Assembly: GCA_017461665.1 (NCBI GenBank)
Contig: JAFTXI010000024.1
Span: forward strand, 85,522 to 149,521
From: Bacteroidales bacterium
GTDB lineage: Bacteria > Bacteroidota > Bacteroidia > Bacteroidales > F082
Reading direction: 5' to 3'
DNA length: 64,000 bases
Part shown: positions 9,255-63,675 of the stretch, piece by piece
How positions within the stretch are numbered: the first letter of the stretch is position 1
Layout: each line of letters begins with the position of its first letter
Made by a program: the position numbers and the translations under genes
Notes under the pieces: model-generated
Seen by the model: the letters and a program-made list of their open reading frames with translations, nothing else
Databases searched by the model: none
What the model was told of the DNA's origin: nothing

Positions 9255-9275
9255 ATCAATTTAACTTTGAAAACT

Positions 9276-31346: not shown

Positions 31347-32543
31347 TTAGTATGTTAGTCCAACAATCCAAAGAGGTAGTTTCTTGCCTACGGGATATTC
31401 CATGTTATCTGCTAAAATGTATGAATTTGGTATATCCGCAATTTGATCAAACGACTTATCGTGTCCGCCAACTTCAAACGTTATCTTTCCATCGACTTTA
31501 AAATCACCTGTTTTTTTTCCATATTCAACAGTATGGTTGACAGACAATTGATTTACGACAAAACATTCTCTGATGGTGCCTATATTACTCTGCTGACATA
31601 ATGCATAAAGTATATTTGTATTATGTAGATATATCTTATCTGGTTTCTGCATTTTTGTCACTGATTTATTATCGGCATATAAGAGATGTAGCAATTCTGC
31701 ACGTTGCAGATTAGATAAATAATTAAGAGTTGTCAATTTATTTATCTCCAAGTATGATGATAGTTTTGCAATATTTGTTTCGTATGGCAAATTATCAGAT
31801 AAAAACATCAACAACGCTTTTAGTTTACGAGTATAGGCTGGTTCTATATTACAAAATTGTGTCATTTCTTGTTCTATAATAAATGAAATAACATTTTCAA
31901 TTCTGTTGTAGTATTCCAATTCGTTGCCATCATAGAAAGGATAATAACCGACTTTCAAATATTCTTCAAAATATCTTTGAGGACGACAAACATCGTTGAC
32001 CATAGTACAAACATCGTCGGAATTATCCAATACGTAACTAAGTGTAAATCTTGGTAATCTAATATTTTTATAAAAATGCAGATATTCTCTAAATGACAAA
32101 CCTTCCATCGTATAAGTCAGCACTCTTCTCGATAGGTCGGCATCAGCATTAAGGATTTGTATTAAAGAAGAACCTGTAAATGTTACTTTTAAGTCAGGAT
32201 ATAAGTCAATGATTTCCTTCAGTTCTCTACTCCAATTCGGATATTTATGCACTTCGTCAAGGAAGAGATGTTCACCTCCGAACTGATAAAATCTTTCTGC
32301 CAAATCAAGCAACGAATGATTTGTAAAATACATACTGTCCATCACGCAGTACAGAGCCTTATCAGCATTAACTCTATAATTACGTTTTATGTATTGTCTC
32401 ATCAGAGTTGTTTTCCCGACACCTCCCGAACCACGAATTGCGACAAGCTGTTTTTCCCAAGAAATATCATTCATGACATCGCGAACGATATTCATATTAA
32501 CTTGAGAAATGAACATTTTATGCTTCTTATAAAGACTTTCCAT
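31347..32543 (-). CDS. AAA ATPase with DUF4143-like C-terminal region
   Basis: A 398-residue protein of the AAA_14/DUF4143 family. Walker A is GSGGVGKTT near residue 38, Walker B is HLFLDEVHK near 93, a sensor VTFTGSS is near 120, then YFEEYLKVGYYPFYDG leads into the helical region. The C-terminus (VDGKITFEVGGHDKSFDQI) resembles the nuclease-like end of the family. These proteins are widespread in gut Bacteroidetes and their role is unknown. It is intact, unlike the relative at 7176. It has its own promoter and appears to be an insertion in the polysaccharide locus. Confidence 0.82.
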   Translation of the reverse strand: MESLYKKHKMFISQVNMNIVRDVMNDISWEKQLVAIRGSGGVGKTTLMRQYIKRNYRVNADKALYCVMDSMYFTNHSLLDLAERFYQFGGEHLFLDEVHKYPNWSRELKEIIDLYPDLKVTFTGSSLIQILNADADLSRRVLTYTMEGLSFREYLHFYKNIRLPRFTLSYVLDNSDDVCTMVNDVCRPQRYFEEYLKVGYYPFYDGNELEYYNRIENVISFIIEQEMTQFCNIEPAYTRKLKALLMFLSDNLPYETNIAKLSSYLEINKLTTLNYLSNLQRAELLHLLYADNKSVTKMQKPDKIYLHNTNILYALCQQSNIGTIRECFVVNQLSVNHTVEYGKKTGDFKVDGKITFEVGGHDKSFDQIADIPNSYILADNMEYPVGKKLPLWIVGLTY

Positions 32544-40280: not shown

Positions 40281-41230
40281 TTAGTTTCCTGGATATTTCC
40301 GTCTGTACAATTCATGGATATAGTCAATTTCCATGTCAGTGTATGCAAAAGGCAATTTCTCAACGAAAGTACATCCGTTTTGAATCAATTGATTGCGTAC
40401 ATTGGTTACATCCTTGGTCAATATAGCCACCTTCTCACAAGCTATACGAAATCCCTCTTCACTATATATACGGTATTTCCGCATATTTCGGACCTTCTCG
40501 GCCATCGGGTCATATGGAAACAACTCCATTCCTCCCTTGGTATGCCTCCAAATTTCCAATGATGCCTGAGGAGAATGCCAGAAACGAAAAGCATGTGCAC
40601 CTGAATAATGGTTGAGGTCGTTTCGTTTTTCATTCATTTCAATACCAAACCCACGTTGTTCTCCAGGCCTTCTTAATGCCTCTAAGCCAATAGGCCATAT
40701 CGGAGCTTCATTTCCAAAGTTTAGGAAGCCGCCAGTAGGAAAAAATATATCACTCCACTTGATACGGTATGTAGGATCGGTTTATACACACCCTGTAGTG
40801 CATCGTATGTCGTAGTTGCAAAGAAGGCAGCCACTAAGAAACTGTTCGTCAAATCAAGGATGTTCGTCTCGATACCGTAGTGTTGCGCTAGCCCATTATA
40901 GTTTACCATTAGAGCTGCATCTTCCATCTCCCTAATCTCAGGATTTACCTGCAGCATCAATCTGAACTCTTCCAGTTGGATTTGCCTCTCCAGACTTTCC
41001 AATTCCGTCAACCCATGCCTGTACAAAGACGGAAGACATCGCTCATGAAACTCACTTTCGCCACGAAACAATGGGGACATGGGCATCGGCGCAGCAGCCA
41101 ATCTATTATCATACAACATCATAGCATCGAAGCATTACGGAGTATGAAAAGGGATTCCAGCCCACCCTCGTTCATTCAAGTGATTGAAAACAGCGAACAC
41201 ATCCGAGAAAATTTCATCATTCAGCTTCAT
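40281..41230 (-). pseudogene. FRG-domain gene, disrupted
   Basis: From an ATG at 41230 the frame reads MKLNDEIFSDVFAVFNHLNE and stops at TAA (41135-41137) after 31 codons. The same frame continues as MMLYDNRL, then LFRGESEFHERCLPSLYR and GLAQHYGIETNILDLTNSF, the FRG domain (named for its FRG motif). A one-base shift near 40765 moves the rest to another frame (FFPTGGFLNFGNEAPIWPIG), ending at 40281. FRG-domain proteins are linked to anti-phage and toxin systems, mostly by inference. If translation restarts at 41122 only a truncated piece is made. It lies between the SDR gene and wbuB as an insertion. Confidence 0.8.
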
Positions 41231-48649: not shown

Positions 48650-49822
48650 TTATAATAGAGCGTTGTGTTTTTCTTTTCTTGTTCCTAAATATAGAAATGA
48701 GAACAGCATTATGTAATGTAGTATTACTATGTGAAAAGGCCTCTGCAGGTAGCCGGCAGCAATGATAATAATACTCAAGATAATATCCTTACGGTTGAGG
48801 TTCTTCAATAATAATATAATCAGTGGCAGGTAGATGACAATTGTTCCTACTATACCATCCGTAGCCAAAGATTCATATGGATTGTCAGCAATATATTCAC
48901 CCATTTTTTCAATATTCTCAGCGCCATTCCCCCATGTTGGACTCTTCCTGTACATCAATTTCGCTTTCTCCATCAAGACGTCACGATTCGTCTCAAGTTT
49001 GCCGTACTGATCTGTTTCAAAACGCCCGAATGTCAAATCATACAGTGAATCACCTGATCCTCTGACATATACGAACGAACATATTACAACTATTACCACT
49101 ACAAATATTATAGATTTTTTTTCGAACTTAATTTTAAAGAATAATAGATATAAAACTAATTGTATGTAGTATGCCATCGAAAGTGTACTCAACAAACCGA
49201 TAATAAGCACAATCTCTATTTTTCTGTCTTTTATAAATAACTGGTTCAAAATTAGTGCGTATATACCCCAACAGGCGAGAGCTCCTGGCTCATCAAAAAA
49301 ACCAGCTGGACGGATAATATTTCCATATAAAGCATTTGTACACGTCATTCCAAAACAATATGCTGTTCTTCCATCAACGTTTTCAAAAGTAAAGATAGGC
49401 GATAATAGACCCACATACACAAGCAAAAAGGCTAGTAGTCCTAAAATTGCCTGTACTCCAATTAATATATTGTTTTGCTTGACAAAATCTTCTATTTTCC
49501 CAAAATTTGATATTGCTGTTATGATAAAGAATGTGAAGACTATATAGAATATTCTTGTAAAATATGAATAATCATTATGGATATATGCGTATATAACCCA
49601 GCATAAAATTTGTATTATTATGCAAATATTGAATTCTACTGGTGGCAATATGATTTTTTTCTTCATAAGAAAAGGTATTATCAGCAATCCGAACGCCACC
49701 ACTAATATGACTTTCTCACTTGGAACTGGCAAGAATTGTCTAAATACATAAGGAACTGCAAGAAACATAGTCATAAAGACTATGCACCATACATATCTAT
49801 GCCATATTTTACTCTTTCCCAT
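48650..49822 (-). CDS. Polysaccharide polymerase, Wzy-like
   Basis: A 390-residue membrane protein with about 10 hydrophobic segments and a periplasmic loop (VRGSGDSLYDLTFGRFETDQ). Sequence of such polymerases is poorly conserved; the call is from topology and position between a flippase and glycosyltransferases. A motif RPAGFFDEPGALACWG is seen near residue 165. It would join repeat units in the periplasm. A separate O-antigen-ligase-type protein lies at 25143. Very AT-rich, like its upstream neighbours. Confidence 0.78.
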   Translation of the reverse strand: MGKSKIWHRYVWCIVFMTMFLAVPYVFRQFLPVPSEKVILVVAFGLLIIPFLMKKKIILPPVEFNICIIIQILCWVIYAYIHNDYSYFTRIFYIVFTFFIITAISNFGKIEDFVKQNNILIGVQAILGLLAFLLVYVGLLSPIFTFENVDGRTAYCFGMTCTNALYGNIIRPAGFFDEPGALACWGIYALILNQLFIKDRKIEIVLIIGLLSTLSMAYYIQLVLYLLFFKIKFEKKSIIFVVVIVVICSFVYVRGSGDSLYDLTFGRFETDQYGKLETNRDVLMEKAKLMYRKSPTWGNGAENIEKMGEYIADNPYESLATDGIVGTIVIYLPLIILLLKNLNRKDIILSIIIIAAGYLQRPFHIVILHYIMLFSFLYLGTRKEKHNALL

Positions 49823-49855: not shown

Positions 49856-51367
49856 TTATCTAAAATAACTGTTGACAATATTATTAATTTTCATTCTCTC
49901 TTCTTTACTCAGAATTATAAAATATCCTGTCAGACCTATTATCGTCGTACTCGTTATCGTTGATGCAACCAACCGTAAAAATGAACTATCAATATTTGAT
50001 ATCAGTAGATACATTATAACCATACAGAATGTAATTGTCAAAAGACTTTGCGGCAATATTGATTTAAGAAAATTCTGGATATTGTATTCGAATGTCTTCT
50101 TTGCAAAATAAAGGTTGGTAATACATTGTAGGAAAGAAATTACGATTGTCACCAAGATCCCGCTGTAGAAACTGTAGCCAAGTTCAAAAACAATGTATAT
50201 GCCTACAATATTGAGCACATACAATGTTGACATAACAATCTGCTGCTTTGTAATATTGCCAGTAGCGTGTACACCCTGATACATAAAGTATGTGAATGAT
50301 GATACGTTAATATTAATGAGAACCAAGCATACAAGTTCATAAGCATATTGCGGTGGCTCCTTCAACCATAATTTGAGTATGTATTCTCCTTCAAAAATTA
50401 TAGGCAGTGTTATGAGCAACATAAGTAAAAACGTAATCTTTGTACCTGTGTTTACAAGCTCGTTCATTCGTGTAAGATCTTTTTTACCGTATGACATCAT
50501 TATCTGTGGTACTACCGACTGCTTGAAATTCATTACAAACGTGCTCACAATGTGCATTACCTGCATCGCCACAGCGTAGGCCGCGTTGACGGCAAGTCCA
50601 AAGAATAGGTTTACAAGAATAATTATACCTTTATCTCTAAATAGTGAAGCCAATACCGTAACAAGCAGCATTGAGACGAACTTTGCAATTTCCTTGACAA
50701 TTTCCTTGTCCCAACACATACGGTGCTTGCATTCTTTGTATCCCCTTGCAACACATACCATAAACACGAAGTATAATATGGTAATAATAAAATTGAGCGC
50801 TCCCAAAGTTATAAGGTGATCGTAATCAATTTGCAACAGTAGATATACAACAACTAACCGTCCTACAGATTGCAATACATCAGCAACTGCAATTTTCGAG
50901 AACTCTTCTCTTGCACGCAATAAGGCAGTATATGGTACACTAATTATGTTAAGAATCAGCGACAGGATTGATATTTGGAATACTATTTGTGCAGCATACA
51001 TCCTCTCTTGAGGAATGTTAAGTTTGTGAAGGAAGAAGATCGCGAATATTTCCATCAGCATAGCTGTAACCAATGCAACAATTATGTGCAGTGCTAAACC
51101 TGAACCAAATACACGTCCCAATTTGTTCTCTTCGCCGCGGCCAATTTCAACACTATAAAAGCGCTGTACTGCTGTTCCCATAGAACCATTAAGAAACGAG
51201 AACAACGCTACAACACTGCTTACAAGGTTGTTCAGTCCATAATCCTCTACACCAAGAACCTCAAGTGTTATTCTTGTCGTAAAGAACGATATAAACATTG
51301 TTATAGCCATGCGGATATACAGGGCTATAGTGTTCTTGGCTATTCTATTGTTTGAATTGTTAGACAT
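49856..51367 (-). CDS. Polysaccharide flippase, Wzx/PST type
   Basis: A 503-residue inner-membrane protein with 12 to 14 hydrophobic segments of the MOP exporter superfamily. N-terminal parts RIAKNTIALYIRMAITMFIS, LGVEDYGLNNLVSSVVALF and GSMGTAVQRFYSVEIGRGEE match the Bacteroidetes Wzx-like group. It moves lipid-linked repeat units across the inner membrane for the Wzy-type polymerase. It sits between a GT4 gene and the polymerase gene. Confidence 0.9.
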   Translation of the reverse strand: MSNNSNNRIAKNTIALYIRMAITMFISFFTTRITLEVLGVEDYGLNNLVSSVVALFSFLNGSMGTAVQRFYSVEIGRGEENKLGRVFGSGLALHIIVALVTAMLMEIFAIFFLHKLNIPQERMYAAQIVFQISILSLILNIISVPYTALLRAREEFSKIAVADVLQSVGRLVVVYLLLQIDYDHLITLGALNFIITILYFVFMVCVARGYKECKHRMCWDKEIVKEIAKFVSMLLVTVLASLFRDKGIIILVNLFFGLAVNAAYAVAMQVMHIVSTFVMNFKQSVVPQIMMSYGKKDLTRMNELVNTGTKITFLLMLLITLPIIFEGEYILKLWLKEPPQYAYELVCLVLININVSSFTYFMYQGVHATGNITKQQIVMSTLYVLNIVGIYIVFELGYSFYSGILVTIVISFLQCITNLYFAKKTFEYNIQNFLKSILPQSLLTITFCMVIMYLLISNIDSSFLRLVASTITSTTIIGLTGYFIILSKEERMKINNIVNSYFR

Positions 51368-51388: not shown

Positions 51389-52666
51389 TTAACGTAACAT
51401 CCTGTTAGGAATAGGTGTTCCATTATTCTTGTTCTCAAGCACCGCATAGTATACATCGCGCCACAGATGGGCACTTGCTTCGTTATCCCTTATTTCCTTG
51501 GTAGTTTTAAAGGCATTGGATCTAATACTTTCTGCAAATTCATTTGAACTAAGCAGGCTAAGCATGTTTTCAGCCATAGCTTCGTGATTTCCCTTTTCAC
51601 TCAGCAAAATGCTTTCTCTTGATTCATTCAATTTGGGTGTAGCAGAAGTAACCGTTGTTACTACAGGTAATCCGTTTGCCATAGCTTCACGTATTGTTCC
51701 TGATATAAGGTCAATTTTTAGCGGTAGCAATGCGAAACGGGATTTTCTAACCTGCTCAATTACGTTGTCGTGTGTTGGCAGTGAACCGCTGAATGATACC
51801 TTATCTGAAATTCCCAACTCTTCAAGCCTTTTATCAAGTGTTCGTTTTGTTTTTACTGCATATCCGCCAACAATGTTTAGAGTGATTCCTGGATATCTCT
51901 CGTGGGCTAACGCAAAAGACTCAATAGCCCAATCTACAGCCTTCTCAATTTCCTTTGCAAAATATACAAAATCATATTCTTTTTCGCACACCGCCATGTC
52001 AATCTTCTCGCCTAATATAAGCGGCATGTCAAGTATTTTTATGTCGGGCCCGTATACTTCTTTAAGTATATTTGTGAACCTCTGTACTCGACAAGAAATA
52101 TAATCGGACCTTTGTAATATCTTTCTTTCTATCCCGCTCCTATAATCGTACATTTTCTTTGAAATAGGATAGTTCATAAAGAATTCTGGGTCAATCATTA
52201 GTGTCTGCAACGCAACAATCAATGGAATATCTTTGGGCATTGATAGGGCAGATTTGCTGTATTCCGGATTCTCAGCTCCAATAACATGAATAATATCCGG
52301 TTTGATAGATTTTACAATCGATAGAATGCCGTTGCAGTTCACCTTATATTCTGGTGTCTCATATCTGCCTTTCAGAAACTTGCGCTTGAGTCTGAACATG
52401 AAATAGTCATCCTCAGATTTGAAGATATGGTAATGGATACCATCCTTTATAAACTCTTCAAGTTTGATAGAAAGTCCTGTATGTGGAGATATAACATGCA
52501 GTTCAATATCATTGAATTTCTTGAATTCATTTATACCATTAGTGTTCCACTGTGAGTAGTCCTTTATCGCCCTTTTACTTGCTCCGTTTCTAAGATGCAG
52601 GTTTCCCCTTATCTCCTCATTCGAAAGATGACATATCCATACAACTTTTATCTTCTTTGCCTCCAT
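51389..52666 (-). CDS. Glycosyltransferase family 4
   Basis: A 425-residue GT-B enzyme with a longer N-terminal half (KVVWICHLSNEEIRGNLHLR, DIIHVIGAENPEYSKSAL) and the usual C-terminal donor part (LGISDKVSFSGSLPTHDNVI, GTIREAMANGLPVVTTVTSA). It presumably adds a sugar of the repeat. The start overlaps the stop of the CBS-domain nucleotidyltransferase by one base. Confidence 0.85.
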   Translation of the reverse strand: MEAKKIKVVWICHLSNEEIRGNLHLRNGASKRAIKDYSQWNTNGINEFKKFNDIELHVISPHTGLSIKLEEFIKDGIHYHIFKSEDDYFMFRLKRKFLKGRYETPEYKVNCNGILSIVKSIKPDIIHVIGAENPEYSKSALSMPKDIPLIVALQTLMIDPEFFMNYPISKKMYDYRSGIERKILQRSDYISCRVQRFTNILKEVYGPDIKILDMPLILGEKIDMAVCEKEYDFVYFAKEIEKAVDWAIESFALAHERYPGITLNIVGGYAVKTKRTLDKRLEELGISDKVSFSGSLPTHDNVIEQVRKSRFALLPLKIDLISGTIREAMANGLPVVTTVTSATPKLNESRESILLSEKGNHEAMAENMLSLLSSNEFAESIRSNAFKTTKEIRDNEASAHLWRDVYYAVLENKNNGTPIPNRMLR

Positions 52667-53727
52667 TATCTCACATTTATCATTTTTAAATATTCATTCC
52701 AATCTCCCATATCTTTCCAGTCGTTTTGGCTTATGGGATAGACACCGACCCTACGACCTTCCGATTTAAGTTTCTCCATAAGATGTGTGATATGATAAAA
52801 CTCATCTGGAATATCATCTAAAAGTGATGGTTCTAATATGTATAAGCCAGTATTGATTTTGAAAGAAAGAGTTGGTTTTTCTTCTATCGATTCTAAAATG
52901 CCATTATCACCAGTAGTAATTGTTCCATACGGAATAGAAAAAGTCTTTAATGCAGCTACAACTGTAAGTTCATTATTATTGCTTCTGTGATAATTCAATA
53001 TTTCTGAGTAATCTTCCTCAATAAGTATATCACAATTTGATACAAAAAATGTAGAATTAATTTTATCTTTGAGTAATCGAAGACTACCAGCAGTTCCTAA
53101 TGGTCTATCTTCTTGAAAATAATGAATATTGTATTCTTTATTGCCAATAAAATCGAAGTAATTTTTTATTGTATCAGCTTTATAATTGACTGACATATAA
53201 AAATCATGACAACCATGACTTACAAATTTATCCATAATGGATTCTACGATTGTTTTTTCACCAACCGGAATAAGCGGTTTGGGATAAACATTGGTAAGCG
53301 GAGCTAAACGTGTTCCTTTGCCTCCAGCCATCACAATTACAGGAAGATTTATACTTTCAATATTCTCTTTTTCCTTTTCTCCAAATAAATCTTTCCAAAA
53401 ATAAACATCAACTAATTTGCCCATTTCATCCACCACTGGCATACATTCGGCACGAAGTCTTAACATTTTTTGACGAACAACATCACTACTTTCATTTGGA
53501 GTTACAAATTTTTTATTCTTATCTATAATATCAATTACAGACTCATTCATATTTAATCCCTTGATAATGGCTCTCTGAATATCACCAATAGTAAGAATAC
53601 TAATAAATTGTTCATCTTTGAATACAAAAAGCATCTTGACCTTTACTTCATCCATCTTTTTTAGTGATTGTAGTATAGTCATTTTACTTTGTATGGATCT
53701 CTTTTGAATCTGTGCTAAAATTGGCAT
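52666..53727 (-). CDS. CBS-domain sugar-phosphate nucleotidyltransferase
   Basis: A 353-residue enzyme. Two CBS domains (about 1-115, with LTIGDIQRAIIKGLNMN and AECMPVVDEMGKLVDVYFW) precede a nucleotidyltransferase domain beginning VIVMAGGKGTRLAPLTNVYP and KPLIPVGEKTIVESIM. The layout equals that of PtmE in Campylobacter, which makes GDP-GlcNAc for legionaminic acid, and of similar proteins in other capsule loci. The sugar is unknown here. It is the last of the gene run before a 176-base AT-rich gap that holds no gene I can see. Confidence 0.87.
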   Translation of the reverse strand: MPILAQIQKRSIQSKMTILQSLKKMDEVKVKMLFVFKDEQFISILTIGDIQRAIIKGLNMNESVIDIIDKNKKFVTPNESSDVVRQKMLRLRAECMPVVDEMGKLVDVYFWKDLFGEKEKENIESINLPVIVMAGGKGTRLAPLTNVYPKPLIPVGEKTIVESIMDKFVSHGCHDFYMSVNYKADTIKNYFDFIGNKEYNIHYFQEDRPLGTAGSLRLLKDKINSTFFVSNCDILIEEDYSEILNYHRSNNNELTVVAALKTFSIPYGTITTGDNGILESIEEKPTLSFKINTGLYILEPSLLDDIPDEFYHITHLMEKLKSEGRRVGVYPISQNDWKDMGDWNEYLKMINVR

Positions 53728-53903
53728 AATATTGTTATTGTTTTATTGTCTTAATAATGTACATTTGCCAAAATATGGTTAATAGACTTTATTTTCTTGT
53801 GAATAATATATACATTCTTGTTTCTTAAAGATATGTCTGTATATATTAGTCAAATGTATGATTTTATAATTGAAATATAGTCTTCTAACATCATCATATT
53901 AAA

Positions 53904-54917
53904 CTATGATTTTGAAATCATTTGTAAAAATACTTCAGTTTCTTCTCTAATACCTACTCTTGTCGCTTCTTGATATAGTGAATGTGGGAAACAATTTACC
54001 TCTACTAAACACCATCCTTTATCAGTCAATGAGAAGTCCATACCACTAATTGTTAATCCTGGTAACTCTTTTGCAATTTCTTTTGCAATTTCGCAAAGCG
54101 AACTCCATTGAGGAATTTGATAACCTGAGAATTCAATATTTGTATCTGGATGTTCTTTTATTATCATAGCATCGCTTGTAATAGCAGAGAGAACAATCCC
54201 TGTAGCTGCATCAATTGCGGCAAATATTCCACCACTATGTGCGTTATCCACAATTGAGTTACCTCTTCCGGTTCTTAGGCAAGGATGCTTTATAAGTACC
54301 TCTTTACCTGTATTGTATGTACAAACTCGAATCGTATTAATAGAATCTGGGTGAAATATTGCTAATTCATCAACCTGACTAATAAGTTCTTCCAGTACAA
54401 AACCACCAGGATAATCTTCAATGAGTTGATCTATCGTCATAGGAGTTTTTACGATTCTTATACCAATACCAGAGTTTCCATCCAAAGGTTTTATAATATA
54501 AGTTGAATGTTTTTGCAAAAAAGTCTGAATATCATTTCTCCAATCATATCCATCATAATAAGCTTTGACGTGATCATTAGGATTTGGATTATATGCAACA
54601 ACTTTTCTTCTATAATATTTCTGTAATTTCAAATAAGAAGCAAATTTATCTAAACAAAGATCTCTTGTTTTTTCCTCATTAACTTTATAATATAACTTTG
54701 CTTGTTCTTTACGAGGTAAAAATTTCATTACATCCACTTCATGTACCCCCCCAAGATTTAGACTAAAAAACTCCATGTGAGCAAAATTATATTTTAATTG
54801 ATATTCGTGTTTTTTTGCAACATAAGCATTTCTTTCATCTGAGGACAAATTTGGATAATATTTTTCCATCAGTTTATAATCCTCTGACCAAAATTCATAA
54901 AATTTATCTGTATTCAT
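53904..54917 (-). CDS. Sugar-transfer-associated ATP-grasp enzyme
   Basis: A 337-residue ATP-grasp-fold protein matching the sugar-transfer-associated group: YIIKPLDGNSGIGIRIVKTP in the ATP site, GGFVLEELISQVDELAIFHP, SINTIRVCTYN, NAHSGGIFAAIDAATGIV and WCLVEVNCFPHS as the metal-binding end. Members occur in polysaccharide loci and are expected to form an amide or similar bond, possibly joining an amino acid to a sugar. It is 11 bases after the cyclodeaminase-like gene. The substrate is unknown. Confidence 0.82.
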   Translation of the reverse strand: MNTDKFYEFWSEDYKLMEKYYPNLSSDERNAYVAKKHEYQLKYNFAHMEFFSLNLGGVHEVDVMKFLPRKEQAKLYYKVNEEKTRDLCLDKFASYLKLQKYYRRKVVAYNPNPNDHVKAYYDGYDWRNDIQTFLQKHSTYIIKPLDGNSGIGIRIVKTPMTIDQLIEDYPGGFVLEELISQVDELAIFHPDSINTIRVCTYNTGKEVLIKHPCLRTGRGNSIVDNAHSGGIFAAIDAATGIVLSAITSDAMIIKEHPDTNIEFSGYQIPQWSSLCEIAKEIAKELPGLTISGMDFSLTDKGWCLVEVNCFPHSLYQEATRVGIREETEVFLQMISKS

Positions 54918-54928
54918 TTATACTCAAA

Positions 54929-55966
54929 TTATATTAGATCTTTATAATTAACGATTGATGATTCTGCAATTGTAACATCATGTCCTAAATTCATTTCCTT
55001 TGCCCTCCTATATATGTAATTTGCGAGATTCAAATCTATATAAGACAGACCAACTGAATTAAAATATATAAATTCATCATCATTATCTCTACCTTTTTTT
55101 CTACCAGATATTAGATCCGATAAGTTTGCGTAGATATCATGATCTTTTAAAATTCCTTCTTTATACATTCTGCAGATTGTTTGTGTACGATGCTTACTCG
55201 CTTCCCAATCATCACAGACAATCTTTTGAGCTTTAAGTGCAACTTCATACTCATCTTCCCATCCCCCTACATGAATGTAAAGACCTCCTTTAGTTACATC
55301 CTTTGCTTTAAGAACAGGAGACTGTCCACTTATTGCAGTTATAATAATATCTGCATTTGATGCACACTTATATGAATCATTATTGCATGCTATAAAAGTT
55401 ACATCAGAAGTAATCTTATTGAAGGTTCTAATAAATGATTCTTCACTTGAGGATGTTCTTGAAGAAACTCTACATTCATTAATTGTTGGAAATAAATGCT
55501 TCAATAAAGCGAAATGCATACGAGCTTCCTCTCCACTTCCAATTATACCAATAGTTTTTACATTTGATGGAGCTAAATACTTAGCAGCCACACAACCAAC
55601 ACCTGATGTACGCATTTTAGTTGTAAGAGTACCATCAATCACTGCAACTGGAAAGCCCGTATTAATTTCTGATAATAACATTACTCCTGTCACATTCTGA
55701 ATACCCTTAGGTGCATTAGTCGGAAAAACAGACACCCATTTCATTCCGCATACCATATCTTCACCGAGTAAAGTTGCAGGCATACAATTTATTCGGTTTT
55801 GGGTTTCCATATCGAATATTTGAGATATTTTATCAGGAAACAACACATCTCCATGGATATATTTTAGAAAAGATTCCTCTATCACTTCAAGAAGAACATC
55901 TGTTTTACCCTTAAATATTTCGGAGACATCCTCTTGAGATATTATCCTTAATTTAATTTCGCTCAT
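54929..55966 (-). CDS. Ornithine cyclodeaminase/mu-crystallin family enzyme
   Basis: A 345-residue NAD-binding enzyme. The mu-crystallin fold is seen in MKWVSVFPTNAPKGIQNVTG, the TGFPVAVIDGTLTTKMRTSG region (K and R of the substrate site), and the Rossmann motif IGIIGSGEEARMHF near residue 140. Members include ornithine cyclodeaminase, alanine dehydrogenases and SbnB, which makes a precursor of 2,3-diaminopropionate. In this run of ATP-grasp genes a role in making an unusual amino acid, to be joined to a sugar, is likely but inferred. Confidence 0.85.
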   Translation of the reverse strand: MSEIKLRIISQEDVSEIFKGKTDVLLEVIEESFLKYIHGDVLFPDKISQIFDMETQNRINCMPATLLGEDMVCGMKWVSVFPTNAPKGIQNVTGVMLLSEINTGFPVAVIDGTLTTKMRTSGVGCVAAKYLAPSNVKTIGIIGSGEEARMHFALLKHLFPTINECRVSSRTSSSEESFIRTFNKITSDVTFIACNNDSYKCASNADIIITAISGQSPVLKAKDVTKGGLYIHVGGWEDEYEVALKAQKIVCDDWEASKHRTQTICRMYKEGILKDHDIYANLSDLISGRKKGRDNDDEFIYFNSVGLSYIDLNLANYIYRRAKEMNLGHDVTIAESSIVNYKDLI

Positions 55967-55974
55967 TGGAAGGT

Positions 55975-57243
55975 TTACAATAAGAGTTTATTATTAACTA
56001 TGTTACATCCGTTCTCATCAATCACTTCGTAAGTATCCTGAATGTACCTTATAATGTTATGACATTCTTCTATTGTAGAATAAACAAAATGGAATAGGCA
56101 AATAACTTGACCAAACGATCCAGTATCGTCAATAGTATCACCAATTTCTTTCTGATGAGGTACAACAACTATTTGATCAGTAAATTTTGATTTTATTATA
56201 TCTACACCTCTTTCTTCTATAATTTTACCACTATTACAATGTACTGGATATATACAATAATTAATTCCTTTACTTATCTCTTTTGGTATTAACGAATGGA
56301 ATCCAAACAATTTACTATCTCCAGATACTGCATAGTAAAGATCTGCGTAGAACTGATTAACCTCACTCATGTAATCAACAGAATAAAAAGAAAAGGAGCC
56401 CCCATAACGATAACCGACCTCGTTAAAATAAAATTCATCACCATCACGAAATACTTCTATCCAAACAGTTCCTTCCTTTATACCAATACTACTAAACAAT
56501 AACGAAAGTTTTGTATCATATCTTTCACGAAATTCTTTCTCTATTATACTCGGACAAGTAAAAAGACCTGCGACATATGACCCTTGTTTTTCGTATTTTA
56601 CAGGTATCTTATCTTCAGAAAGTACGAAATGCATCTTGCCTTCACTAAAAGAATAAAAAACAACTATACCTGAATTATTTACAAATTTTTCACATATTAC
56701 TGATTGTGTTGGTGAAACGTCAGCTGCTATTTTATAACCCTTAATTAGTTCATTTGAGTTATGACAAACAGAAAAGCCATTACTACCACTACCATCTGTT
56801 GGTTTTGTAATAACAGGATAAGAATTTTCAGGAACAGAAGATGCAATATTGTTTATATCTATAACAAAACGAGGAACTACTGGTAAATCGAATTTGATAC
56901 ACAAATCTTTGAATAAATCTTTATTCTGAAGTATTTCCCACTGCTCTTTTCTACAATAACAAGGCAAACCAACCTCATTAATCCATTCACAAGCGTGCGA
57001 AATGATAAATTCACTACCACCCATATAGACTCCTTCAATATTATGTTCCTTTATAAAAGGAATCATAATATCTCTATCTGTAGTATCTACACGATAATAT
57101 TCATCGGCTATATCATCAAGAGGAGCTGGATATAGCCCTGCAAATATTAAATATACTCCATACTCGTCTGCAAATGATCGAATAAGATCTTTCCATACAC
57201 TACTACCAAGTATCAGTAATCGTTTTCCTTTCAAATTTTGCAT
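55975..57243 (-). CDS. ATP-grasp ligase
   Basis: A 422-residue ATP-grasp protein. A Rossmann-like start (QNLKGKRLLILGSSVW), then YPVITKPTDGSGSNGFSVCH in the ATP site, and the metal-binding end FYFNEVGYRYGGSFSFYSVD. The enzyme joins a carboxylate to an amine with ATP use; both substrates are unknown. I placed the start at 57243, just after the preceding gene (4-base gap); an upstream ATG at 57303 would overlap that gene by 56 bases. It is the third of three consecutive ATP-grasp genes and the most divergent. Confidence 0.82.
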   Translation of the reverse strand: MQNLKGKRLLILGSSVWKDLIRSFADEYGVYLIFAGLYPAPLDDIADEYYRVDTTDRDIMIPFIKEHNIEGVYMGGSEFIISHACEWINEVGLPCYCRKEQWEILQNKDLFKDLCIKFDLPVVPRFVIDINNIASSVPENSYPVITKPTDGSGSNGFSVCHNSNELIKGYKIAADVSPTQSVICEKFVNNSGIVVFYSFSEGKMHFVLSEDKIPVKYEKQGSYVAGLFTCPSIIEKEFRERYDTKLSLLFSSIGIKEGTVWIEVFRDGDEFYFNEVGYRYGGSFSFYSVDYMSEVNQFYADLYYAVSGDSKLFGFHSLIPKEISKGINYCIYPVHCNSGKIIEERGVDIIKSKFTDQIVVVPHQKEIGDTIDDTGSFGQVICLFHFVYSTIEECHNIIRYIQDTYEVIDENGCNIVNNKLLL

Positions 57244-57247
57244 AAAA

Positions 57248-58354
57248 TTATATTTTATGATCCGAACAATAAATAAAATATCCAGAATTAGAGGCTTCAA
57301 CATTACCTGAAACTTCTATATATTCATTTTCTTTAATTGTATTTTTTACACACCAGTCGGAAACTTTAGCTTCTTCAAATAATGATTTAAGGTACTCATT
57401 TTGTTTACAATGAAAGTATATTCCAGAAAAACTTTTATGACATATTTCTTGAGGTATATAGTCACCCATAGCACACAATACAGCAGCTTTAATATAGTCA
57501 AAACCAGTACTTAGAGGAGTAAGTATATCAGAAATATGATCACCACCACCTCTTGCCCCAACTTCAATGAAATATAATTCATCATTGATTATTTTCAATT
57601 CAAGATGAGCCATCCCACAAGTTAAACCAAGAACATCTAACACTTCCGATACTGCAAGATTAATTCTCTCTTTGATTTCATTACTAAGATTGGCAGGCTG
57701 ATGATGACCTAATTCCACAAAATGAGGTGGCCCTGATGAATCTTTCTCTGTATATTGTACAATTTGATGTATTTGTTCTATAGATAAACATTCTATAGAA
57801 TATTCTTTACCGCCTTCTAAATATTCTTCAATCAAAACAGAGCCATCTGAAGAATTATCTCTCGCGGTAATAAGTGCATCTTCAAAATCTTCTTCTCTTT
57901 TCACTAAAGAAACTCCACGTTTACCACAAGAATCAACAGATTTTACAATTATCGGTAGAGAATATTCCTTTCCTTCTTGATATAATTCAAAATGAGGTTG
58001 ACAAATAGAGTTGACAGATGCAACCCGTTTGCGCATTTCAAATTTATTTTTACCAGCAAATCCACCTTTTATACTATTTCCAGGAAGATTCAGAACAGCA
58101 GCTAAGTGAGCTGCAACTTCGGTTGTAATCTCACTGGTTGCCATAATTCCATCTACTTCAAATTCACGACATTTGCAAGCCATAAATTCTACATCAAAGT
58201 CGTTTTCCTCAATAAAAAAATCAACTATTTCTTGAGCATAAGACTGCTGACGTGCAAAAGCCAATACTTTTAAACCTAATTCATGTGCCTTTTCTATAAT
58301 AGGAACAGCGGCAAATCCAGCACCAATAATTGCTAAAATTTTCTCTTTCATCAT
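57248..58354 (-). CDS. ATP-grasp ligase
   Basis: A 368-residue ATP-grasp protein. N-terminal KILAIIGAGFAAVPIIEKAH, then LPIIVKSVDSCGKRGVSLVK (ATP site), EEYLEGGKEYSIECLSIE, the FVELGHHQPANLS motif and the metal-binding end LYFIEVGARGGGDHISDI. It shares the ELGHxQPANLS motif and overall plan with the product of the gene directly upstream (58351), so the two are paralogs. They overlap by 4 bases (ATGA). The substrates are unknown. D-Ala-D-Ala ligase and carbamoyl-phosphate-synthase relatives share only the fold. Confidence 0.82.
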   Translation of the reverse strand: MMKEKILAIIGAGFAAVPIIEKAHELGLKVLAFARQQSYAQEIVDFFIEENDFDVEFMACKCREFEVDGIMATSEITTEVAAHLAAVLNLPGNSIKGGFAGKNKFEMRKRVASVNSICQPHFELYQEGKEYSLPIIVKSVDSCGKRGVSLVKREEDFEDALITARDNSSDGSVLIEEYLEGGKEYSIECLSIEQIHQIVQYTEKDSSGPPHFVELGHHQPANLSNEIKERINLAVSEVLDVLGLTCGMAHLELKIINDELYFIEVGARGGGDHISDILTPLSTGFDYIKAAVLCAMGDYIPQEICHKSFSGIYFHCKQNEYLKSLFEEAKVSDWCVKNTIKENEYIEVSGNVEASNSGYFIYCSDHKI

Positions 58355-59538
58355 TGAATTTTTATCAAATGATTTATTCTATTTTCATAAGTACTGATAG
58401 TATCTGCAACTATACTGCTATTCTCACCGAATACAACAAACTGACCATATCTATCTAGCGAACTATTAATCGGTTTTATCCTATCGCCTACATTCAATTT
58501 CATTTCAAAAGAATAAATGTTAGGCCATGACCATACTCCATTGATTGCAATATCAACATATTCTACTACGCCTTGAGGAAAATTAAAGAAACATACCGCG
58601 GATGCCTTATTTACTCTACCGGTAGATATATCTACTTTATTATTTAATGCTATATTCAGTAATTGATCTTCAATATTAATTCCTGTAGAAAGTGGCACTA
58701 ATGTTGATGTTATGTAATCACCTCCCAAGCGAGGGCTTGTCTCTATAATAAATATACCCCGTTCATTTATTTTCAATTCGGTATGAGATGGACAATTCTC
58801 AAAATTCATACACTCTGCAATATTGGAAATAATTTTTCTTATTTCTTCTTTTTGCTCTTCGCTCAAATTTGCAGGTTGTTTGTGTCCTAATTCTACATTG
58901 TATGGGAATGGAGTTGTAGTTTTTTCTGTAAATTGAATTACCTCGGATTTACCATCATAGTGCAATGATTCAATACTATATTCCTGTCCTTCTATAAATT
59001 CTTCAACCAAAACTGTATCCAATTTGGAATATTGCAAAGCTTCGTTCATTGCTTCCTTCAATTCCTCTGTAGAATTGCAGTATATAACACCTCGCGAACC
59101 AGAATTATCACGAGGTTTTACAATCACAGGAAAATGAAAATCCTTAGCCTCTTCTACATTAGAAATTAAACGGCCCTTTGCACACGGAATACCTCCTTCG
59201 ATAAAACGTTGTTTCATCTTAAACTTATCGGTTGACCATATTGCTGTATCTTCGGAAAAGAATTTTAATCCAAGCTCTTTGGCTATGCGGGCCATCATTA
59301 CAAGAGGCTTGTCAGTGGCAGCTGTTACGACTGCAGATATGTTATATTTTTTTGCTACTGCAAGTGTGCCTTCGAAATCTTGTCCGCCTACAATCTCAAA
59401 AGCATCAACTTCCTCTCTACATACAGCATCAGCGCAAGGATCTATACCTACTACAAAAAGCCCCATCAACTTAGCTCTGTTGATTATAGACTTTTGTAAT
59501 TCACCAACACCAAAAATAAGAACAGATTTTTTATCCAT
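58351..59538 (-). CDS. ATP-grasp ligase
   Basis: A 395-residue ATP-grasp protein. It starts KSVLIFGVGELQKSIINRAK, continues with FPVIVKPRDNSGSRGVIYCN (ATP site), EEFIEGQEYSIESLHYD, YNVELGHKQPANLSEEQ and IFIIETSPRLGGDYITSTL (metal-binding end). The start overlaps the aminotransferase gene by 8 bases. It is the first of three consecutive ligase genes and directly follows a sugar aminotransferase, which would provide an amino group for acylation. The amino acid or peptide substrate is not deducible. Confidence 0.83.
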   Translation of the reverse strand: MDKKSVLIFGVGELQKSIINRAKLMGLFVVGIDPCADAVCREEVDAFEIVGGQDFEGTLAVAKKYNISAVVTAATDKPLVMMARIAKELGLKFFSEDTAIWSTDKFKMKQRFIEGGIPCAKGRLISNVEEAKDFHFPVIVKPRDNSGSRGVIYCNSTEELKEAMNEALQYSKLDTVLVEEFIEGQEYSIESLHYDGKSEVIQFTEKTTTPFPYNVELGHKQPANLSEEQKEEIRKIISNIAECMNFENCPSHTELKINERGIFIIETSPRLGGDYITSTLVPLSTGINIEDQLLNIALNNKVDISTGRVNKASAVCFFNFPQGVVEYVDIAINGVWSWPNIYSFEMKLNVGDRIKPINSSLDRYGQFVVFGENSSIVADTISTYENRINHLIKIQ

Positions 59539-60664
59539 TGATAGCTTCGTTTACGACACCTACAATATATTCAACATCCTCAATTGTTAGAGCAGCATAC
59601 ATTGGCAATGTTATTTCGTGGTCTGTTACATATTCTGTTTGAGGTAAGACAGCACCATAATCTTTATAAATTGAAAATCTGTGAATTGCTGGATAATGAA
59701 CACTTGTTTGAACTCCTGCTTCATGTATTTTGTTTCTAATTGAATCACGGTCTTCTACAGTGCCTTTCGTGATAACGATAGGCATGATATAATTAGAAAC
59801 AAATTCTGTGTTATCGGCAAAAGGAATTATAACGTTTTCAACTTTTGATAAAAGTTCGATATAACGATTTCTAACTGCTATTCTTTTTTCGAGATCTTCC
59901 GGCAATTTCTTTAATTGTTCAATGGCTATAGCTGCATGAATATCATCTAAACGGAAATTGTATCCAAGTTCCACAATATCGTATGCAGTTGCATGTCCTC
60001 CGGCACGTTGGTAGCTCATTGTTGTCATGCCATGCGAGCGAAGCAAACGAGCTTTGTCGGCTATCTCCTTATTGTTTGAAATAAACATACCACCTTCACC
60101 TGTACTGATATTTTTGTTGGAGAAGAAACTGAAAGCTGCACAGTCGCCTATAGTGCCAAGTTTCTTTCCTTTGTATTCCGAAAGAGGTCCATGACAAGCA
60201 TCTTCAATAACTTTTAGATTATGTTTTTTAGCAATAGCCATAACCTCATCCATCTTACAAGGGAAACCAGCCATGTGAACAACTAGGATAGCCTTTGTCT
60301 TATTTGTTATCTTCTTTTCAATTTCTTCTGGGTCAATGTTTATGTGTTCAGGACCTACAATATCGCAAAATACGGGAGTAGCACCGGCATAACGAATACA
60401 ATTGGCAGATGCTGCAAAAGTAAGTGACGGACATATAACTTCGTCGCCAGGTTTTACACCTGAAACTAAACAGCATAGATGAAGTGCATCTGTGCAATTA
60501 GACATACTCACAGCATAGTTGACATGAAACATATCAACAAACATTTTTTCAAGTTCTTCACATTTAGGACCAGTTGAGATCCAGCCAGATTGTATGGTGT
60601 CATAAGCAGCTTGCGCTTCTTTACCATCAAAATTAAGATTAAACAAAGGAATTTTATAAGCCAT
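59531..60664 (-). CDS. DegT/DnrJ/EryC1 sugar aminotransferase
   Basis: A 377-residue PLP enzyme: IQSGWISTGPKCEELEKMF, SNCTDALHLCCLVSGVKPGD, LTFAASANCIRYAGATPVFC, VIEDACHGPLSEYKGKKLG, FSFFSNKNISTGEGGMF with the Schiff-base lysine near residue 185, and LGYNFRLDDIHAAIAIEQLK. It belongs to the PseC/LegC/ArnB type that aminates 4-keto-6-deoxy nucleotide sugars. The dehydratase that would make its substrate is the gene just upstream (11-base gap). The product would be a 4-amino-4,6-dideoxy sugar, to be acylated by the ATP-grasp genes. Confidence 0.9.
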   Translation of the reverse strand: MAYKIPLFNLNFDGKEAQAAYDTIQSGWISTGPKCEELEKMFVDMFHVNYAVSMSNCTDALHLCCLVSGVKPGDEVICPSLTFAASANCIRYAGATPVFCDIVGPEHINIDPEEIEKKITNKTKAILVVHMAGFPCKMDEVMAIAKKHNLKVIEDACHGPLSEYKGKKLGTIGDCAAFSFFSNKNISTGEGGMFISNNKEIADKARLLRSHGMTTMSYQRAGGHATAYDIVELGYNFRLDDIHAAIAIEQLKKLPEDLEKRIAVRNRYIELLSKVENVIIPFADNTEFVSNYIMPIVITKGTVEDRDSIRNKIHEAGVQTSVHYPAIHRFSIYKDYGAVLPQTEYVTDHEITLPMYAALTIEDVEYIVGVVNEAING

Positions 60665-60675
60665 ATCGTTTCTTA

Positions 60676-61884
60676 TTACATTTTTTGATCTAAATTCTTT
60701 CCTTTTTCCTCATGGTCGAAGTTAGGAATAAAACGTTTAATAGAAGCTACAACTTCTTCTTTTGTAAAGCATGGATTATTAAAGATTTCTTCCATTTCCG
60801 TAAAGAAATTTTCAATATCAATCATAGGACGATGAGCAGATTCTTCAATAATACCAATTCCGAGGAAACGATTCATGTCCAATTTTTCACCAGGTACAAA
60901 AAACTCTTCGTATGCTTTTTCACCTGTAGTATCGCTTTTGAAATAAACTACAGGATATTTATTGGTCTCAAAAGACATATCGTTGGCTACTTTTTTAGCT
61001 TCTTCATCATTAGCACACTCTATCTTTTCGCAACCTATTGTTTTTACATATTCATCACAAATACTTGAGAAAGTGAGCATTTGGTCTTCACCCAATTTCG
61101 GGAAGAAGATTTCACCATTCTTACCTAAAATACAAGCAAGCATACATATCTGTCCACTCTCATCTAAAGAGACAAAATAACGTTTTACGTCGTTAGGTGC
61201 AGCCAACGGTTGTTTCTTCTTCACACGATTTAGCCAACCATCAGGCAAAGAACCATTGGAAAAAGCTACATTGGCAAAACGCGCAGTTGTTACTTTAAAC
61301 TTTGAAGTATAAGCCATTACCATGTCTTCCATTATTCTTTTGCTAGCACCCATAATATTAACTGGGTTAGCAGCCTTGTCGGTAGATACGCAGAAGAAGT
61401 GTTTAGGAGGATATTCGCAAAGCAAATCCATAAACTTCTTGGCTTTAATGTCGTTGTTCTCTATCAATGCCTGAATACTATATTTATCCTTTTCGCTACG
61501 CACATGCTTATGAGCAGAGAAATTTGCAACAATATCAAAACCTTTCTCTTCACGGAATATACGAGCGAAAATAGGATCTGAGAAATTTAAAGTATATGTG
61601 CGATACTCTTCTGGCACAAACATCCCGTAAGTAGAACGAAGATCACGCGTAAGTTCTGCCAAACCATTTTCATTTAAGTCTATAACAACAAGTTTGGAAG
61701 GTTGAAAAGGAAGCAAAGCTCTAATAAACGATGAACCTATAGTACCAGCACCGCCTATAACACATACACTTTTATCTTTAATTTCTTGTTGTAATTTCTC
61801 TTTGTTGTTTTCAATATCATTAGCAAAGAGACTAATTTGACGCATTGTTATGCTGTCTGATATAAATTTATTTAAATTGAACAT
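60676..61884 (-). CDS. Cytosolic nucleotide-sugar 4,6-dehydratase (CapD/LegB-like SDR)
   Basis: A 402-residue SDR of the CapD clade without membrane segments. NAD site SVCVIGGAGTIGSSFIRALL near residue 40, FSAHKHVRSEKDKYSIQ, CVSTDKAANPVNIMGASKRI near 170 (with M in place of Tyr) and RFANVAFSNGSLPDGWLNRV. Such enzymes make a 4-keto-6-deoxy sugar from a UDP- or GDP-HexNAc. The neighbouring CBS nucleotidyltransferase of the PtmE type raises the possibility of a GDP sugar, as in Campylobacter legionaminic acid synthesis. It is the first gene of the region-4 run, about 70 bases after the pseudogene. Confidence 0.85.
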   Translation of the reverse strand: MFNLNKFISDSITMRQISLFANDIENNKEKLQQEIKDKSVCVIGGAGTIGSSFIRALLPFQPSKLVVIDLNENGLAELTRDLRSTYGMFVPEEYRTYTLNFSDPIFARIFREEKGFDIVANFSAHKHVRSEKDKYSIQALIENNDIKAKKFMDLLCEYPPKHFFCVSTDKAANPVNIMGASKRIMEDMVMAYTSKFKVTTARFANVAFSNGSLPDGWLNRVKKKQPLAAPNDVKRYFVSLDESGQICMLACILGKNGEIFFPKLGEDQMLTFSSICDEYVKTIGCEKIECANDEEAKKVANDMSFETNKYPVVYFKSDTTGEKAYEEFFVPGEKLDMNRFLGIGIIEESAHRPMIDIENFFTEMEEIFNNPCFTKEEVVASIKRFIPNFDHEEKGKNLDQKM

Positions 61885-62709: not shown

Positions 62710-63129
62710 TTATTTAAAAAATTTATTTTTTTCTTGTTCTGAGAAAATCTTTGATTTATTCACATTATTCAGAATGTTTTTGAGATCTTCTTCTATAAGA
62801 TTTCCTTTAATTGTACTTTTACCCTTGCTTATTGACTGAGCTAATGATGTTTTGTCAATTTTTATTAAATCAGAACAACACAAATAGGAATCATAATTTA
62901 GAAATTTATATATAGTGCAATGTAATTTATATTGTAATTCTAGCAATTTTGGTTTTGTACTGATGAAATCATTAATTTTTGAATTAACAAAGAATGCACC
63001 AACCACATTATTATCATCCTCTCCAATAATTGCAAAAAACTTTCCATGATCAATACTCTCAAAAATATTTGAATGCAGGATGGCTCCTCTTTTTAACTCT
63101 TGTTCTAATAATTTTATTGGTAATTGCAT
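62710..63129 (-). CDS. Putative toxin partner of a Panacea antitoxin
   Basis: A 139-residue protein of no family I can name with certainty. It starts MQLPIKLLEQELKRGAILHS, contains FAIIGEDDNNVVGAFFVNSK and YKFLNYDSYLCCSDLIKID, and ends with a charged helical tail. Its start lies one base after the stop of the Panacea-domain gene, an arrangement typical of PanA antitoxin and PanT toxin pairs. The role is inferred from this position alone. The phrase FAIIGEDDNN with VVGAFFVNS could belong to an SH3-like or PemK-like barrel, but no catalytic motif is clear. Confidence 0.6.
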   Translation of the reverse strand: MQLPIKLLEQELKRGAILHSNIFESIDHGKFFAIIGEDDNNVVGAFFVNSKINDFISTKPKLLELQYKLHCTIYKFLNYDSYLCCSDLIKIDKTSLAQSISKGKSTIKGNLIEEDLKNILNNVNKSKIFSEQEKNKFFK

Positions 63130-63675
63130 CTACAAAGAGTTTATTAGTTCTTTAATTTTATTCATATCATCAATAAACTCGATATATTCGTTAGAGTCTC
63201 CTTTTTCTAATAATAAATCTTTCATTGAAATAGGTCTATCTTTGACTGTATTACGCCAAGCGTAATCATGTGATTTTTCTCTAATTTCATCCCATGACAA
63301 ACCACCATATTCTTTTAATGATTCATCAAGATATTCTATATCACTCTCTGAAAGATAACTTAAATCAGCATCTGTTTTAGGATAAACAAAATTCCATTCT
63401 CTAATCTCAAAATATTTGGAAAACTTTTTTGCTTCTTCATAAAAGAAGCCATCTCCACGTACCCCTTTGAGGATATCATACATATTAGATGGCACAGGAC
63501 CATCGTTCATAGCTATGTATGTGTCACCAGTAATCATGCGCCCATAATCAGATAGATGGTTGCGATCGGCAAAATAAATTACTTTAAATATTTTGTGAAA
63601 ATCTTTTCTCTTTAATCTATTCGATACATATAATATCGAATGAATAGCTTTTTCCAGATTGAATAAGGTGTTCAT
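63130..63675 (-). CDS. Panacea-domain (DUF4065/SocA-like) antitoxin
   Basis: A 181-residue protein with the Panacea fold: LEKAIHSILYVSNRLKRKDF, KIFKVIYFADRNHLSDYGRM, ITGDTYIAMNDGPVPSNMYD, then the helical end GGLSWDEIREKSHDYAWRNT. These features (YFAD, GDxYxAMxxGPVP) identify the domain found in SocA and many phage proteins. The Panacea domain is known as an antitoxin that neutralises unrelated toxins encoded next to it. The neighbouring gene (62710) is therefore the presumed toxin. The pair probably forms one operon. Confidence 0.85.
   Translation of the reverse strand: MNTLFNLEKAIHSILYVSNRLKRKDFHKIFKVIYFADRNHLSDYGRMITGDTYIAMNDGPVPSNMYDILKGVRGDGFFYEEAKKFSKYFEIREWNFVYPKTDADLSYLSESDIEYLDESLKEYGGLSWDEIREKSHDYAWRNTVKDRPISMKDLLLEKGDSNEYIEFIDDMNKIKELINSL

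Follow-up and report, generated by a model that had tools for sequence, protein, structure and literature searches.

A run of eight genes in a Bacteroidales bacterium (assembly GCA_017461665.1, contig JAFTXI010000024.1) probably makes an amino-dideoxy sugar bearing a short amino-acid chain for a capsule or O-antigen repeat; judging from gene content and from comparison with other genomes, we put the probability of this reading at roughly 0.7. All eight are arranged in tandem on the minus strand, between positions 61884 and 52666 of the window, by which we mean the whole 64-kb stretch of DNA analysed, a contig end of a 2.49 Mb genome. Two adjacent genes of the run, encoding a divergent ATP-grasp ligase (AG3) and an enzyme of the ornithine-cyclodeaminase/mu-crystallin family (OCD), are a conserved pair that is new here; no published AG3-OCD pair in polysaccharide loci was found in a literature search that left out most subscription journals. 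The outline of the pathway is well supported by these comparisons and by one genetically and chemically studied relative, the type B flagellin system of Clostridioides difficile.

Organization of the gene run

The first two genes of the run encode a nucleotide-sugar 4,6-dehydratase related to PseB and FnlA (60676..61884; PF02719, 130.3 bits) and a DegT/DnrJ/EryC1 sugar aminotransferase (59531..60664; PF01041, 373.2 bits). Three ATP-grasp ligase genes follow. AG1 (58351..59538) is an ATP-grasp_4 ligase of L-amino-acid-ligase type, with matches to PDB 4dim and BL00235, and its solved relatives include amino-acid ligases; AG2 (57248..58354) is a second ATP-grasp_4 ligase with close homologs in three of the loci collected for comparison, designated here by L numbers (L064, L065 and L067). 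Pfam families were judged against the curated Pfam cut-off, which for PF13535 is 27 bits, and both AG1 (90.4 bits) and AG2 (59.7 bits) lie above it. The LAL_C2 domain (PF18603) scored 26.1 bits on AG1, below its cut-off of 29.4, and had no listed match on AG2. AG3 (55975..57243), the partner of OCD, matches PF02786 (28.4 bits, cut-off 19.8) and misses PF13535 at 24.5 bits, a cut-off that its homolog in L066 attains with 27.9; AG3 homologs retain the lysine, glycine-loop and C-terminal motifs. The most likely AG3 start is the ATG at 57243, giving 422 amino acids, and a start at 57303 would represent an upstream extension. Most analyses used the sequence 55975-57258, which carries five surplus N-terminal residues.

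OCD itself (54929..55966) matches PF02423 at 190.9 bits (cut-off 24) and is a predicted NAD(P)-dependent dehydrogenase of its family. It is followed by AGST, a sugar-transfer-associated ATP-grasp gene (53904..54917; PF14397, 146.6 bits, cut-off 31.4) also present in L064 and L092, and by a PtmE-like CBS-domain sugar-1-phosphate nucleotidyltransferase (52666..53727; PF00483, 127.3 bits, and CBS PF00571, 32.5 bits, both over cut-off). A preliminary description of the window had assigned eight genes to these families and coordinates, and open reading frames and Pfam confirmed this, with AG3 the least clear case. It had also correctly reported overlaps of 8 nt (aminotransferase and AG1) and 4 nt (AG1 and AG2). 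The remaining genes are separated by 11 nt (dehydratase to aminotransferase), 4 nt (AG2 stop to AG3), 8 nt (AG3 to OCD) and 11 nt (OCD to the PF14397 gene), with 176 nt upstream of the PtmE-like gene.

The natural reading is that the sugar is most likely of 4-amino-4,6-dideoxy type. In a profile scan the dehydratase fell below the equivalog cut-offs of both PseB and FnlA, and the aminotransferase was nearest PseC (316.0 bits, cut-off 423.5) and missed LegC (250.9 bits, cut-off 420). All ten aminotransferases scanned fell below cut-off, seven of them nearest DesI and three nearest PseC. Campylobacter PtmE makes GDP-glucosamine, and the Campylobacter GDP-legionaminic acid (Ptm/Leg) pathway shares the CBS nucleotidyltransferase, 4,6-dehydratase and aminotransferase types with the window; unlike that pathway, the eight proteins scanned here include no synthase-type gene product.

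Conservation of the AG3-OCD pair

The C-terminal part of OCD was scanned against one genome per species, which gave 224 confirmed relatives, and the best 80 loci were kept; genes were called AG3-like from their best BLAST label at more than 60 bits. Eighteen of these 80 loci carry an AG3-like gene, adjoining OCD in 17 and standing one gene off in the other. Sixteen of the 18 AG3 loci have a DegT gene, versus 2 of the 62 other OCD loci (Fisher test, 8e-13), and AG1/AG2-like genes occur in 14/18 versus 0/62. Three phyla are represented among the AG3 loci (Bacteroidota, Bacillota and Spirochaetota), with Bacteroidales, Odoribacter laneus, Clostridia and one Treponema among the carriers. The locus of O. 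laneus YIT 12061 (L066) has a core of aminotransferase, AG1, AG3 and OCD.

The gene order as well as the gene content recurs. L065 and L067 keep the order of dehydratase, aminotransferase, AG1, AG2, AG3, OCD and PtmE with one extra gene each, the Treponema locus L073 has the same order minus AG2, and L064 starts inside the order and has AGST. Homologs of the dehydratase hold the same position in L031, L065, L067 and L073. An order that is found again beyond this genome, and beyond its phylum, reflects more than chance. The run of ligases had been described as having no known parallel. This was not supported, because two or more ATP-grasp genes are present in 14 of the 18 AG3 loci and three or more in six (among these L096, which reaches that number through a copy lying at its far end). 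Similar runs also occur on plasmids, and we rejected the ligase run as a unique feature.

In a tree of 80 OCD sequences (the window and 79 of the 80 loci, one having been lost to a length filter), made unrooted and by a quick method, the 19 glycan-linked OCDs form one side of one branch, with a Shimodaira-Hasegawa-like approximate likelihood ratio test (SH-aLRT) support of 96; none of 500 shuffles was as low. AG3 distances track those of the aminotransferase (r 0.55, 17 rows) and of AG1 (r 0.69, 13 rows, with L096 represented by its best-scoring copy and not the copy beside AG3), and none of 5000 permutations gave values as high. In an alignment of AG3 proteins, three types of C-terminal motif were distinguished by eye. 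The type found in the window is accompanied by an AG1/AG2-like gene in 14/14 loci (window included), compared with 1/5 for the other two types (Fisher test, 0.0013, a value that ignores relatedness). From the AG3 types and the distance pattern we infer one free OCD product, which AG3 enzymes, each adapted to its own kind of acceptor, would couple.

Both genes are rare. With a threshold of E 1e-50, OCD matched in 1/393 genomes of the order, the window's own; AG3, with a threshold of E 1e-20, matched in 3/395 genomes of the phylum, namely its own and two with relatives of 26-29% identity, whose loci have some sugar-type genes and no OCD-like gene. Within Clostridia, 7/291 genomes matched OCD at E 1e-60, one of these being the L128 genome; in the six others (seven stretches) no gene labelled ATP-grasp or DegT lies within five genes of OCD. 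Three further families gave no OCD match (0/3 and 0/194 at E 1e-50, and 0/71 at E 1e-40).

Two of these loci call for separate description. L073 comes from a Treponema metagenome-assembled genome from roe deer rumen, and its aminotransferase and AG1 are 79% and 71% identical to those of the window, nearer than the corresponding proteins of some Bacteroidales; identity is lower for its AG3 (55%) and OCD (50%). These mixed identities make cross-phylum transfer in pieces likely for this locus. On plasmid pMB02 of Acaryochloris sp. 'Moss Beach' (L063), the coding sequence of an OCD relative (47% identity to that of the window) is broken between two reading frames and lies in non-sugar surroundings, with transposase and 2Fe-2S/FAD oxidoreductase genes as neighbours.

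Association of AG1 and AG2 with sugar genes

Relatives of AG1 at E 1e-30 or better are present in 36/393 genomes of the order, and in none of four listed genomes of the same genus. In 20 loci, an AG1/AG2-like gene adjoins a DegT gene 11 times, where 2.6 would be expected for a random gene from the same 20 loci, and a DegT gene lies within two genes in 14/20 (5.6 expected). Together with the frequency of DegT in AG3 loci, this agrees with the preliminary assignment of the ligases to the sugar genes; the contrary outcome, ligases common apart from sugar genes, did not occur in these locus sets.

In L031-L036, one gene separates AG1 from PtmE in all six loci, and AG1 adjoins the aminotransferase in five. 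The intervening gene encodes an epimerase, a PglD-like protein, a methyltransferase and, in two loci, a GCN5-related N-acetyltransferase (GNAT) in the five loci scanned (all but L033). The corresponding interval of the window holds AG2, AG3, OCD and AGST. The variation among the intervening genes is in keeping with AG1 placing a first residue that is tailored later. An AG1 homolog is also contained in an Aureibacter pseudaminic acid operon. Plasmid loci of Parabacteroides distasonis and Bacteroides finegoldii carry DegT with two ATP-grasp genes, and one of Enterococcus hirae carries DegT with a single ATP-grasp gene. A search of viral contigs gave no confirmed matches.

Comparison with characterized glycosylation systems

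In the C. difficile type B flagellin locus, CDR20291_0244 to 0247 encode FemAB, an ATP-grasp protein (PF13535), an OCD protein and FdtB (PMC5207246). Mutants of 0245 (ATP-grasp) and 0246 (OCD) had the core trisaccharide only and had lost the terminal peptidylamido sugar (PMC5207246). This cap consists of taurine-Ala-Gly carried by the Fuc3N amine, with nuclear magnetic resonance placing an alkylated nitrogen on alanine (PMC5207245). The idea that ATP-grasp and OCD enzymes serve a peptidyl amino sugar, which had been put forward for the window, has a precedent in which both are genetically required (PMC5207246, PMC5207245). As in C. difficile, the ATP-grasp gene of the window is followed directly by OCD on the same strand and a DegT aminotransferase belongs to the run; the C. 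difficile product is an amino sugar whose amine carries a short chain, which is what we propose for the window. The published system, in which DegT lies further along after OCD, differs in that the sugar is dTDP-Fuc3N and the target is flagellin rather than a polysaccharide repeat.

A PF02423 search of 15 genomes from the family of 71 mentioned above, which had no OCD match at E 1e-40, gave a match in all 15. The four loci that were read (L174-L177, Clostridioides-like) all have the published type B order, and the published domains were found in L174, the one that was scanned. On a tree of ATP-grasp proteins the Clostridioides-like enzyme stands beside the AG3 group (support 98). In L174 a small gene lies between OCD and the aminotransferase (8936-9364) and encodes FdtA (PF05523, 155.5 bits); a small gene occupies the same place in L175, L176 and L177. 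According to the published account, no FdtA homolog is apparent in the R20291 locus (PMC5207245), and differences between strains or species may lie behind this discrepancy.

ATP-grasp enzymes act on other surface glycans too. Deletion of the ATP-grasp gene sfmE (SO_3265) of Shewanella oneidensis is reported to lower flagellin glycan mass (PMC3765264). SfmE resembles AG1 and AG2 in being an ATP-grasp_4 protein, but its five-gene operon has no OCD, unlike the window (PMC3765264). Cj1438C, the C-terminal domain of Campylobacter jejuni Cj1438 and a TupA-like ATP-grasp amidoligase, decorates a capsular sugar through an amide (PMC11800379). It is described as acting on the C6 carboxylate of the sugar, the reverse polarity to the acylation of a sugar amine proposed here (PMC11800379).

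Proposed pathway and the role of OCD

In the pathway that we propose, PtmE, the dehydratase and the aminotransferase would supply a nucleotide-linked amino-dideoxy sugar. AG1 would activate the carboxylate of a first residue and couple it to the sugar amine, and AG2 would add a second residue. An unusual alpha-amino acid, perhaps N-substituted and of opine type, would be produced by OCD with NAD(P)H, and AG3 would couple it as a further or capping residue. AGST may add one more group as an optional step. The products of the nearby glycosyltransferase, flippase and polymerase genes would then build the decorated sugar into a capsule or O-antigen repeat.

For OCD, the family named in the preliminary description stands (PF02423) and the function that the name implies does not: 'ornithine cyclodeaminase' is here a family name. 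Ornithine cyclodeaminase proper (NF005762) scored 92.7 bits on the window protein and missed its cut-off of 350. The nearest profiles were archaeal alanine dehydrogenase (TIGR02371, the best match at 199.3 bits, cut-off 409.15) and SbnB (TIGR03944, 194.1 bits, cut-off 326.9), both below cut-off. The nearest solved structures are likewise alanine dehydrogenase and SbnB, and the Clostridioides-like OCD is nearest SbnB. We considered 2,3-diaminopropionate made through SbnA and SbnB. This is unlikely because no SbnA over cut-off was found in 13 genomes (the window's own and 12 of the 18 AG3-OCD carriers; weaker matches in 12/13), a search without a positive control since none of 14 control genomes had one either.

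An opine-type acid is a tentative suggestion for the OCD product, made by analogy and at well below even odds. The cap unit HO3S-CH2-CH2-NH-CH(CH3)-CO of C. difficile has what we take to be the constitution of the opine tauropine. Tauropine dehydrogenases of sponges are animal enzymes of energy metabolism and differ in this from the window OCD. They are reported to be members of the OCD superfamily, to which the window OCD also belongs (PMC4113996, PMC3840593). The window OCD has the OCD/mu-crystallin fold feature (PF02423) of this class. A wider and rather doubtful conjecture is that AG3 and OCD form an opine cassette for surface glycans. OCD would join a keto acid and an amine (giving tauropine in C. 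difficile and another opine here), and AG3 would couple the carboxylate of the product to an aminoacyl sugar; the cassette would have spread over Bacteroidota, Bacillota and Spirochaetota, freely combined with different sugars and with ligases that set chain length. No published case linking tauropine, alanopine or opine dehydrogenases to glycans was found among the matches listed, and the word 'opine' does not occur in the available text of PMC5207245 and PMC5207246.

Weighing the evidence

Several observations weigh against the proposed pathway or its opine extension. The families, order, co-occurrence and phylogeny of the genes are what was observed; the reactions, the sequence in which residues are added and the substrates are all inferred. 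Two of the 18 AG3 loci have no DegT gene, L077 and L064, the latter being cut by a contig end. Between OCD and AG3 the distances are only weakly correlated (r 0.19, 19 rows, with 123 of 5000 permutations as high), which weakens the idea of strict OCD-AG3 co-evolution. The C. difficile parallel is also imperfect. In the published locus, FemAB is found where AG1 and AG2 sit in the window; FemAB was not found among the eight proteins of the run, the part of the window scanned for it. Clostridioides-like OCDs are 27-28% identical to that of the window (80-82 bits; window OCD profile set, 104 bits), and OCDs outside glycan loci are nearer, at 45-49%. At 27-28% identity we rejected the C. difficile enzyme as a close homolog; its glycan use and that of the window OCD may be separate recruitments. 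The Clostridioides ATP-grasp protein scores higher with the AG1 profile (213.5 bits) than with the AG3 profile (194.5 bits), contrary to the tree. Finally, within 4 kb of OCD, the 62 non-glycan loci have an octopine/nopaline dehydrogenase homolog in three cases and a sarcosine-oxidase-alpha-like gene in seven, the latter also in the glycan locus L072. These opine-type neighbours of OCD relatives are suggestive, and most of the 62 loci are without any such gene.

Other products have been weighed against a chain on an amino sugar. Each sugar might carry one amino acid, with the ligases acting on different sugars of the repeat or with alternative residues, and OCD would be an ordinary supplier of alanine (or of proline or pipecolate). 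The usual finding on amino sugars is a lone alanine or N-acetyl-amino-acid, and the best profile match of OCD, at a score below cut-off, is to archaeal alanine dehydrogenase. Every cell contains alanine, and the OCD mutant of C. difficile is nonetheless reported to lack the cap (PMC5207246), which argues that this OCD makes something other than alanine. The tracking of AG3 types with AG1/AG2 presence (14/14 versus 1/5) fits a chain, and we regard decoration with single residues as unlikely.

The ligases could instead acylate the sugar amine with hydroxy acids or with other carboxylic acids, OCD being a reductase in their synthesis, a reading in which distant AG3 relatives beside genes of short-chain dehydrogenase/reductase or thiamine pyrophosphate type, as we read the sequences, would find a place. 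OCD-family substrates are generally alpha-amino or imino acids, AG1 and AG2 belong to PF13535 and the solved relatives of AG1 include amino-acid ligases, so that such acyl groups are decidedly improbable products here. They do occur elsewhere, as in the 3,5-dihydroxyhexanoyl group on such a sugar in Flavobacterium psychrophilum, but that system is said to employ a PglD-type acyltransferase and an acyl carrier protein (PMC6519341). The least probable reading, and a very improbable one, is a small natural-product cluster that lies in the capsule locus by chance and makes a free peptide-like metabolite unconnected to the polysaccharide. PF13535-related enzymes do yield free dipeptides such as bacilysin and dapdiamide, and on a Providencia plasmid the neighbours of an AG1-like gene are radical SAM, major facilitator superfamily and PatB-like genes, with no sugar genes in the stretch shown. 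This reading is weakened by the recurrent coupling with dehydratase, aminotransferase and PtmE across genera and phyla, by the AG1 homolog in a pseudaminic acid operon and by the precedent in C. difficile.

Other genes in the window

Downstream of the run, on the same strand, lies a GT4-type glycosyltransferase gene (51389..52666; PF00534, 68.8 bits), a likely user of the decorated sugar, with homologs after PtmE in L031, L065 and L073. It is followed by a putative Wzx-type flippase gene (49856..51367), which has weak NCBIfam matches below cut-off and homologs beside the cassette in the same three loci, and by a polymerase-like (Wzy-type) gene (48650..49822; PF04932, 22 bits, below the cut-off of 31.7). 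Beyond this are more glycosyltransferase-like genes and open reading frames that we take to be L-FucNAc-type genes. The whole looks like a Wzx/Wzy polysaccharide locus.

Several genes of other kinds are interspersed. Three tandem RhuM-family genes (PF13310; 35404-36300, 36325-37014 and 37039-37941) lie inside the polysaccharide region and share long repeats of 169-300 nt that are 74-93% alike, with differing middles. A gene for an AAA_14/DUF4143-type ATPase (31347-32543; PF13173, 93.1 bits) lies amid sugar genes, and a short open reading frame with an FRG domain (40721-41122; PF08867, 56.1 bits) amid glycosyltransferase and sugar-nucleotide genes. Upstream of the sugar genes are a SocA/Panacea antitoxin-like gene (63130-63675; PF13274, 85.3 bits) and, beside it, a small gene with no Pfam match (62710-63129).

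Significance

How a bacterium appears to hosts, phages and antibodies is shaped by the amino acids and peptides that its surface sugars carry, and many enzymes responsible for their attachment have yet to be assigned. The comparison made here offers a testable role for each gene of the run and places the AG3-OCD pair in three phyla, including the Gram-negative Bacteroidota. If the opine proposal is true, it would account for the requirement for an enzyme of the OCD family. The comparison also yields a sequence signature by which such glycans may be found in genomes.

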